The position numbers and the translations under genes were made by a program. Of a stretch of 38,734 nucleotides of DNA, positions 32,371 to 33,537 are shown piece by piece (within the stretch, counting starts at the first letter, position 1; each line of letters begins with the position of its first letter). Under the pieces are notes generated by a model that was not told where the DNA came from, made no database searches, and saw only the letters and a program-made list of their open reading frames with translations. The stretch comes from Ignavibacteria bacterium (GTDB lineage: Bacteria > Bacteroidota > Ignavibacteria > UBA10030): contig VGVZ01000027.1 of the NCBI GenBank assembly GCA_016873805.1, positions 1-38,734 of the forward strand. The letters are read 5' to 3'.

Positions 32371-32409
32371 AAATTGTAGATTGAAAATTGAAGATTGAGA
32401 ATTGGGGGG
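32371..32409. repeat. left AT-rich inverted repeat flanking the IVP/S23 gene
   Basis: Purine-rich, imperfectly repetitive ATTG/GATTGA units (for example ATTGAAGATTGAGAATTGGG) ending in a G run. The reverse complement of the segment at 32773-32817 contains near-identical units, so the two form imperfect inverted repeats around the small gene. Confidence 0.65.
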
Positions 32410-32412
32410 AGC

Positions 32413-32763
32413 GTGACGCCTGATGAATTGAAGCGCCGGACGAAGATGTTTGCGACGCGAATCGTGTGGTTTGCTGAAGAGTTGCCCGAAGGTCGATCGA
32501 TCAACGTAGTGACTCGCCAGCTTGTTCGTTCCGGGACTTCGGTCGCTGCAAACTACCGGGCGGCGTGCTTGGGGCGCTCGAAGGCGGAGTTCAACGCGAA
32601 GCTCCATATCGTGCTCGAAGAGGTCGACGAGACGGTTTACTGGTTGGAGGTTTTGGAGGAATCCGCTTTGACCAATAGTAAGGACCTCGACGAACTCAAA
32701 CGAGAAGGCAAAGAACTCACGGCGATCTTCATCTCGTCGTTGAAAACCTCGCGGTCAAAGTAG
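32413..32763 (+). CDS. four-helix-bundle protein (23S rRNA intervening-sequence protein, S23/IVP family)
   Basis: 116 residues from GTG at 32413, chosen because homologues begin MTPxELKxRTKxFA and this reads (V)TPDELKRRTKMFATRIV; the frame is open to a TTG at 32395. Core motifs: LPEGRSINVVTRQLVRSGTS, SVAANYRAACLGRSKAEFNA, KLHIVLEEVDETVYWLEVLE. The family (TIGR02436-like, related to the Avd accessory protein of diversity-generating retroelements) occurs inside 23S rRNA intervening sequences of Leptospira and Coxiella and free-standing in many FCB and candidate-phylum genomes; its biochemical role is unknown, nucleic-acid binding is suspected. It lies alone between tRNA-His and tRNA-Glu and is framed by inverted repeats, which looks like a discrete inserted unit. 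Confidence 0.88.
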   Translation: MTPDELKRRTKMFATRIVWFAEELPEGRSINVVTRQLVRSGTSVAANYRAACLGRSKAEFNAKLHIVLEEVDETVYWLEVLEESALTNSKDLDELKREGKELTAIFISSLKTSRSK

Positions 32764-32817: not shown

Positions 32818-32890
32818 GCCCCCATCGTCTAGAGGCCTAGGACACGAGCTTTTCAAGCTTGGAACACCGGTTCGAATCCGGTTGGGGGCA
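32818..32890 (+). tRNA. tRNA-Glu (anticodon UUC)
   Basis: Acceptor GCCCCCA (32818-32824) with TGGGGGC (32883-32889), discriminator A at 32890. The anticodon stem CGAGC/GCTTG encloses a loop with TTC at 34-36. The T-arm is ACCGG, TTCGAAT, CCGGT. CCA is not encoded. Its last 10 bases begin the 142-bp tandem repeat that follows. Confidence 0.95.
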
Positions 32891-33022
32891 CAATGGGGTC
32901 CCGACAGAAAACGTCGGGATCCTCAATTCGACAACGACTCACTGAGAAACGTTCGTCGGTCGAATTGGGACTTGGAACACGAGTTCGCCTGCCCGCCGGA
33001 GCGAAGCGTAGGCAGGAATCTC
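32881..33022 (+). repeat. 142-bp tRNA-Glu-associated repeat, unit 1
   Basis: The unit begins with the real tRNA-Glu 3' end (GTTGGGGGCA). It then contains a hairpin TCCCGAC/GTCGGGA (32899-32919), a second hairpin CAATTCGAC/GTCGAATTG (32924-32967), and from CTTGGAACAC (32971) a tRNA-Glu 3' half with T-stem ACGAG/CTCGT. The T-loop is split after TTCG by a 29-nt palindromic insert (32988-33016, arms CCTGCC/GGCAGG) before AAT. The acceptor end is completed by the first bases of the next unit. Confidence 0.9.
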
Positions 33023-33164
33023 GTTGGGGGCACAATGGGGTCCCGACAGAAAACGTCGGGATCCTCAATTCGACAACGACTCACTGAGAAACGTTCGTCG
33101 GTCGAATTGGGACTTGGAACACGAGTTCGCCTGCCCGCCGGAGCGAAGCGTAGGCAGGAATCTC
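33023..33164 (+). repeat. 142-bp tRNA-Glu-associated repeat, unit 2
   Basis: Identical to unit 1 base for base on reading both through, including the 29-nt T-loop insert (33130-33158). Complete identity of non-coding sequence indicates recent duplication or gene conversion. Confidence 0.9.
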
Positions 33165-33303
33165 GTTGGGGGCACAATGGGGTCCCGACAGAAAACGTCG
33201 GGATCCTCAATTCGACAACGACTCACTGAGAAACGTTCGTCGGTCGAATTGGGACTTGGAACACAAGTTCGCCTGCCCGCCGGAGCGAAGCGTAGGCGGG
33301 ATT
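33165..33303 (+). repeat. 142-bp tRNA-Glu-associated repeat, unit 3 (diverging end)
   Basis: Matches units 1 and 2 except ACACAAG for ACACGAG in the T-stem and GGCGGGATT for GGCAGGAAT at the end of the insert, after which it leaves the repeat. Confidence 0.88.
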
Positions 33304-33305
33304 CT

Positions 33306-33346
33306 GAATTCGGCGGTTCCGACACAAATCGTCGGAAGCCGAATTC
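33306..33346. repeat. additional perfect hairpin inside the decayed fourth tRNA-Glu 3' end
   Basis: GAATTCGGC (33306-33314) and TTCCGAC (33317-33323) pair with GTCGGAA (33331-33337) and GCCGAATTC (33338-33346). Four bases later comes GTTGGGGGCA (33350-33359), a fourth copy of the tRNA-Glu acceptor end. This looks like a second palindromic insertion into the same tRNA remnant. Confidence 0.8.
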
Positions 33347-33393
33347 GAAGTTGGGGGCACGACATAGTTGTGAATTGAGGATTGGGGAATTTG

Positions 33394-33425
33394 AAAAGCC
33401 GACTCAGGAATGAGTCGGCTTTTTT
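33394..33425. terminator. strong terminator after the tRNA-Glu repeat array
   Basis: AAAAGCCGACTC (33394-33405), loop AGGAAT, GAGTCGGCTTTT (33412-33423), then more T: a 12-bp perfect stem with A and T tracts on both sides. On the plus strand it would end a transcript from tRNA-Glu through the repeats; on the minus strand it can end ubiA transcription. Confidence 0.88.
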
Positions 33426-33537
33426 CCTTTCTTGGGGAGAACTCGTCTGCCTGATCGCGCGCCCATCTGCAAATAGCTCAACCCGACAAGCGTCCGCATC
33501 CGTGCCGACCAACAGTTTCCCCACTCAATCGAATTGA

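Follow-up and report, generated by a model that had tools for sequence, protein, structure and literature searches.

Tandem units downstream of tRNA-Glu

The window, by which we mean the whole 38,734-nt stretch of Ignavibacteria DNA analysed here, carries an intact tRNA-Glu(TTC) gene followed by a tandem array and a candidate intrinsic terminator (Table 1). A four helix bundle protein gene (TIGR02436, E 3.5e-22) occupies 32395-32763, between tRNA-His and tRNA-Glu, and a similar gene is found at the same place in genome G023 (L012). The array is by far the strongest tandem repeat of the window (Tandem Repeats Finder: period 142, 3.0 copies, 98% matches, score 829), the unit number being that of a 60-contig assembly. 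An earlier, sequence-only reading of this DNA had described tandem 142-bp units after the intact tRNA-Glu, and both the sequence and the repeat search confirm them. Two units are identical; the third is longer and diverges near its end. What had been described as a fourth acceptor-end remnant turned out to be the end of unit 3, cut off by a 41-nt palindrome.

Table 1. Features of the tRNA-Glu array and its flank (positions refer to the window)
Feature	Position	Strand	Basis
Intact tRNA-Glu(TTC), T-stem allele ACCGG/CCGGT	32818..32890 (end 32890/91)	+	ARAGORN and Rfam RF00005, 60.4 bits; allele comparison
Unit 1, 142 bp: spacer, two-hairpin element, displaced tRNA-Glu 3' half with T-loop palindrome	32892..33033	+	
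Two-hairpin element, copy 1, 72 bp (TCCCG..CGGGATCCTCAATT..AATTGGGA)	32899..32970	+	Covariance model R1, E 4.8e-15; alignment A2
Displaced tRNA-Glu 3' half, first part, anticodon stem CTTG to TTCG, allele ACGAG	32971..32987	+	
29-nt palindrome in T-loop (equivalently TTC^GAAT)	32988..33016	+	
Displaced tRNA-Glu 3' end AATCTCGTTGGGGGCAC	33017..33033	+	
Unit 2, identical to unit 1; element 33041-33112, palindrome 33130-33158	33034..33175	+	
Unit 3: element 33183-33254, T-arm variant ACAAG, palindrome 33272-33300, extra hairpin insert, last 3' end	33176..33360	+	
Additional 41-nt palindrome separating last 3' end from unit 3	33306..33346	+	Sequence
Outermost displaced tRNA 3' end GAAGTTGGGGGCAC, adjoining ancestral flank	33347..33360	+	Aligns to intact tRNA-Glu end and flank, G007 and G002
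Intrinsic terminator candidate of tRNA-Glu transcription unit	33393..33424	+	Similar hairpin beside intact tRNA-Glu in G007, G002

Units 1 and 2 each end with CTTGGAACACGAGTTCG, 29 nt and AATCTCGTTGGGGGCAC. The 29-nt T-loop insert, which the sequence-only reading described for the first two units, is present in all three and is palindromic only in its 6-bp ends (CCTGCC...GGCAGG). With the insert shifted one base earlier, the break falls at TTC^GAAT, where 14 other T-loop inserts also lie. Genome-wide, the 29-mer (at most 3 mismatches) occurs only in the three array units, which rules it out as a mobile family. The part of the array that recurs across genomes is instead the 72-bp two-hairpin element, which the sequence-only reading had not singled out. 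The proposal of a palindromic element targeting tRNA genes thus holds for the two-hairpin element, which prefers tRNAs (see below), and fails for the 29-nt palindrome.

The whole region and a single unit fold much better than shuffled sequences (z = –9.8 and –3.5, respectively), as is expected of a region that consists of hairpins. No terminator candidate was found between tRNA-Glu and 33393, and hence co-transcription of the array with tRNA-Glu is plausible. To that extent the suggestion of a structured, co-transcribed RNA stands; no sign of RNA function was found in the array. The Rfam gathering search of the window returned tRNAs only and no RtT match, which rules out a known RNA family for the units. 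A phage origin of the array was rejected, since the matches were to ordinary tRNA-Glu only. The array has no endonuclease gene, and we saw no GIY-YIG gene near it.

Partial tRNA copies in the genome and its relatives

We searched around every tRNA gene of the same genome, and around 161 tRNAs from relatives, for same-strand partial copies that were 13 nt or longer and lay no more than 1.5 kb from the tRNA. Such self-copies flank 14 of the 46 tRNAs of the genome (versus 1 of 424 control pairs). In same-family relatives they flank 36 of 127 tRNAs (versus 35 of 1128 control pairs), for loci drawn from the best-scoring matches listed, in assemblies of which several are fragmented and which are not independent of each other. 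Only 1 of 34 tRNAs from other families of the order has such a copy. The design of the window array is repeated with a different element at tRNA-Glu(CTC) of the same genome, where two 358-bp units each end in a 3' half with a T-loop hairpin; the neighbouring tRNA-Gln has repeated 5' pieces upstream. A DNA pattern search of GTDB species genomes for one version of the element matched Ignavibacteria genomes only. In this genome and its relatives, small inserts, either hairpin DNA or a GIY-YIG endonuclease gene, appear from the sequences to have repeatedly broken tRNA genes apart and reassembled them, with the old half left beside an intact copy.

Split 3' halves lie downstream of tRNA-Thr(CGT) in seven genomes (L113, L117, L123, L127, L129, L154, L195), where in each case they match the genome's own tRNA-Thr. 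The match suggests either concerted change or repeated formation.

Copies upstream of a tRNA keep its 5' end (20:0 in informative cases) and downstream copies keep its 3' end (23:0). The same polarity is predicted by partial tandem duplication followed by decay, in which replication slippage, or unequal crossing-over, has one of its breakpoints inside the tRNA and thereby copies a half together with its flank, and hairpins land later in the useless copies. We therefore compared the flanks. Beyond the outermost remnant, the flank is unlike that of the intact tRNA in 34 of 41 cases, which duplication does not predict, and inner copies have the intact tRNA's flank in 10 of 12. Most copies are thus not plain tandem duplications of a tRNA with its flank. 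The outermost flank does match in 7 of 41 cases (tRNA-Asp and tRNA-Gly, for example), as duplication would have it, and the identical units of the window are evidence that plain tandem amplification occurs. As an account of the whole pattern, however, we consider duplication unlikely, in view of these flanks and of two further observations given below.

Allele swap and ancestral flank at tRNA-Glu

The first of these concerns the T-stem, which is ACCGG/CCGGT in the intact gene and ACGAG/CTCGT in the displaced halves, both in the window and in G023. Most intact tRNA-Glu genes of the family have ACGAG/CTCGT, which bears out the claim that the fragments derive from another functional tRNA-Glu. Downstream remnants are present in all four family genomes with ACCGG versus 1 of the 14 that have another allele. 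One genus has both states: ACCGG with remnants in G005, ACGAG and no remnants in G019. In other families, genes with ACCGG lack remnants, and the association may include shared descent between some genomes.

In G007 (E 1.7e-7) and G002, the end of the intact tRNA-Glu and its flank, with the terminator hairpin, align to positions 33334-33430 of the window. The native flank thus lies beyond the last remnant: the old 3' end has stayed in place, and the new 3' half and the spacer entered between. By the allele comparison, the paired T-stem changes are explained by an allele swap, which duplication does not predict. At other tRNAs, most fragments do not differ from the intact gene and so are uninformative on allele displacement.

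GIY-YIG genes lie between intact tRNAs and displaced halves

The genome has 12 GIY-YIG matches, one of which has the size of UvrC. Among the eight other loci listed, five are tRNA-linked and three are not near a tRNA. The tRNA-linked genes are free-standing short ORFs that match PF01541 over the cut-off. None of three GIY-YIG sequences compared with NCBIfam reaches a cut-off. We inspected 12 tRNA-near loci, and in all 11 that could be resolved (L057, L103, L082, L083, L085, L087, L088, L094, L098, L099, L106) the GIY-YIG gene lies between an intact tRNA and a displaced half, the order being either fragment-GIY-tRNA or tRNA-GIY-fragment. This placement exactly between the halves is the second observation that partial duplication leaves unpredicted.

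The reading frame of the GIY-YIG gene ends inside the D-loop of the following tRNA in three loci, and whole cassettes are repeated in tandem at tRNA-Ser and tRNA-Pro. At L057:106-678, each of the three arms (D-, anticodon and T-) of a tRNA-Arg copy holds a hairpin; the copy is followed by a GIY-YIG gene and then by an intact tRNA-Arg, inside which the GIY-YIG stop codon lies. By comparison of these loci, the key event at the window array is the replacement and displacement of a tRNA 3' half, a pattern common to the GIY-YIG cassettes at other tRNA genes.

Hairpin elements and their insertion sites

A covariance model search found 25 copies of the two-hairpin element in the genome. Among the 22 copies listed, 15 lie less than 600 bp from a tRNA (9 of 15 independent loci; 1.4% expected), a placement far from random and in favour of a preference for tRNA genes. 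Precise palindrome insertions are also concentrated in tRNAs: we counted 46 distinct ones in 207 tRNAs versus 4 in 1895 controls. Fourteen distinct insertions are exactly at T-loop TTC^, and other insertion points are in the D-loop (AGCTCAG^) and the anticodon arm (CAAG^CTTG). More insertions fall in loops than expected (24 of 34, versus 14.5). The usual T-loop insert is a 30-bp double hairpin, whose pairing is kept through changes on both sides and which is also widely dispersed off tRNAs. At L267 and L269, the tips of non-tRNA inverted repeats carry such double hairpins, which gives the impression that insertion is directed at hairpin loops. Together, the dispersal and the non-tRNA hairpin tips suggest, at the sequence level, a separate insertion process for the double hairpin.

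One could expect displaced halves with hairpin-extended loops to be kept as functional tRNA-like RNAs, serving pre-tRNA processing or acting as decoys of tRNA-cutting enzymes. The strong folding of the units and of the region, the absence of a terminator candidate before 33393, the compensatory changes in the hairpins and the tRNA-Thr(CGT) copies matching their own tRNA-Thr would all agree with such a role. However, relatives differ freely in the positions, number and hairpin sequence of the copies, many genomes have none and the same hairpins are found away from tRNAs; conserved hairpins would be expected just as much of mobile hairpin DNA. We therefore regard a functional RNA as improbable. 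We give as little credence to a Y1 (RAYT/IS200-like) transposase that moves the hairpin elements and targets hairpin tips, with tRNA arms as one target class and the GIY-YIG genes as bystanders: seven Y1_Tnp matches in the genome, the loop preference and the non-tRNA hairpin tips are in line with it, but none of the seven lies near a listed tRNA or adjoins the elements, as distinct from REP/RAYT or IS200-type systems, and the intact tRNA with its displaced half, the allele swap and the GIY-YIG position would be left unexplained.

A proposed target-restoring insertion into tRNA genes

We lean towards reading the array as a target-restoring insertion into a tRNA gene, driven by tRNA-cutting GIY-YIG homing endonucleases, with the protein-less hairpin arrays as derivatives. 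This reading builds on the anatomy of the array and its recurrence, the polarity of the copies, the displaced allele, the ancestral flank and the position of the GIY-YIG genes, all observed at the level of DNA sequence. The incoming element would have brought its own tRNA-Glu 3' half (ACCGG/CCGGT), which joined the resident 5' half so that a working tRNA was kept, and the resident 3' half (ACGAG/CTCGT) would have been pushed downstream. The autonomous form would carry a small free-standing GIY-YIG gene, as seen between intact tRNA and displaced half at other tRNA genes; its nuclease would cut the tRNA gene and repair would copy the cassette in. The window units would then be protein-less derivatives in which the two-hairpin element fills the GIY-YIG slot and on which the GIY-YIG nuclease would act in trans. 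The window array has no endonuclease gene, and its link to GIY-YIG rests on the anatomy shared with other loci. T-loop hairpins in the displaced half break the motif GTTCGAAT, the putative cut site. We infer this role of the palindromes, and our guess is that hairpins protect displaced halves from cutting. The regenerated intact tRNA would be open to further hits, and short direct repeats could recombine to give tandem units.

More tentatively, endonuclease cassettes and protein-less hairpin units might form a distinct class of bacterial tRNA-gene parasites. These would come in from either side at the D-, anticodon or T-arm and restore the tRNA with a half of their own. As every insertion leaves a new target, they would accumulate, and hairpin DNA would be put into arm tips by an undescribed process.

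Relation to known systems

tRNA genes are favoured landing sites of mobile DNA. Genomic islands that integrate into tRNA genes restore the target with an element-borne tRNA end and keep the displaced end at their far side. The units described here differ in size (0.1-0.7 kb), in having no integrase gene that we could see and in using D-, anticodon and T-arm sites instead of one att site. The 178-bp repeats of E. coli tyrT (rtT RNA) are tandem units after a tRNA gene, each with a tRNA 3' end, and Rfam has an RtT family. The window units likewise each have a tRNA 3' end, but the window has no Rfam match other than tRNA. We know of no T-loop hairpin and no endonuclease link in the tyrT repeats.

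A likeness in anatomy is found in the mORFs of fungal mitochondrial DNA, which replace the end of a gene and leave the native end behind an endonuclease gene (PMC3630166). They are known in atp6, atp9, cox2 and nad3 (Allomyces, Glomus); the displaced native end matches close relatives, and the atp9 case is of the GIY-YIG type (PMC3630166). In the window, too, the gene end is duplicated and, by polarity and native flank, the native end is displaced to the far side of the insert. The displaced end again matches relatives while the intact end is a different allele (window and G023), and all the resolvable GIY-YIG tRNA loci elsewhere hold the endonuclease gene in the insert. The window array has no such gene in its insert, and so is not itself classed as an mORF. 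The present system further differs in affecting tRNA genes of a bacterial chromosome, in having 5' and 3' versions and many copies without an endonuclease gene, and in forming tandem arrays.

According to one report (PMC13096335), SegB of T4/T6 is a free-standing GIY-YIG homing endonuclease beside tRNA genes that cuts inside tRNA genes, prefers RAWTSGAAC and drives tandem amplification of a tRNA + segB unit, with microhomology between the tRNA 5' end and the segB 3' end. The complement of the motif as given there, GTTCSAWTY, fits the T-loop GTTCGAATC, the motif interrupted by hairpins. The cassettes described here are likewise free-standing GIY-YIG genes, tRNA-linked at most of the listed loci in the same genome, with cleavage only predicted. 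In contrast, SegB belongs to phages and amplifies complete tRNA genes (PMC13096335), and we know of no displaced halves with hairpins reported for it. Double-hairpin elements of mitochondrial DNA are dispersed short hairpin-forming elements described as mobile (for example PMC5910586, PMC2800124). Compared by description only, the elements studied here differ in that they are bacterial, are concentrated at tRNA genes and interrupt tRNA arms.

Literature searches for palindromes within the T-loops of tRNAs, for GIY-YIG in Ignavibacteria and for tRNA pseudogenes that contain palindromic repeats returned nothing relevant. To our knowledge, endonuclease elements that restore the invaded gene are known only from mitochondria and phages; such a parasite lifestyle has been found in fungal mitochondria and T-even phages, and we know of no description at bacterial tRNA genes. 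If our reading is true, the present system would be a chromosomal version, acting on up to one third of a genome's tRNA genes. It would also account for tRNA allele swaps with paired T-stem changes and for unexplained partial tRNA copies in genomes, and it offers direct testing of hairpin insertion at tRNA arms.

Elements away from tRNA genes

Seven of the 22 listed copies of the two-hairpin element lie elsewhere, some in partially duplicated kinase-like genes. At L243, L246, L258 and L009, the element adjoins partial copies of the starts of Ser/Thr kinase-like genes, in the order partial gene, element, gene. Hence, the process may extend past tRNAs. One element copy in the genome lies ~300 bp past 5S rRNA, and two are at distant tRNA-Glu(CTC) copies. 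The displaced tRNA-Glu(CTC) copies with elements, L242 and L245 (C1, ~166 and 198 kb), are 36 and 68 kb from the intact gene. Other RNA genes were considered as targets and rejected: of nine scanned stretches from relatives, first taken as tRNA-free, six in fact hold a tRNA. The 23S rRNA gene of the same genome (C21, L247:47-3862) is 3816 nt long versus 2925 positions of the model and contains a LAGLIDADG-like reading frame (2246-2791), probably reflecting an intron with its endonuclease.
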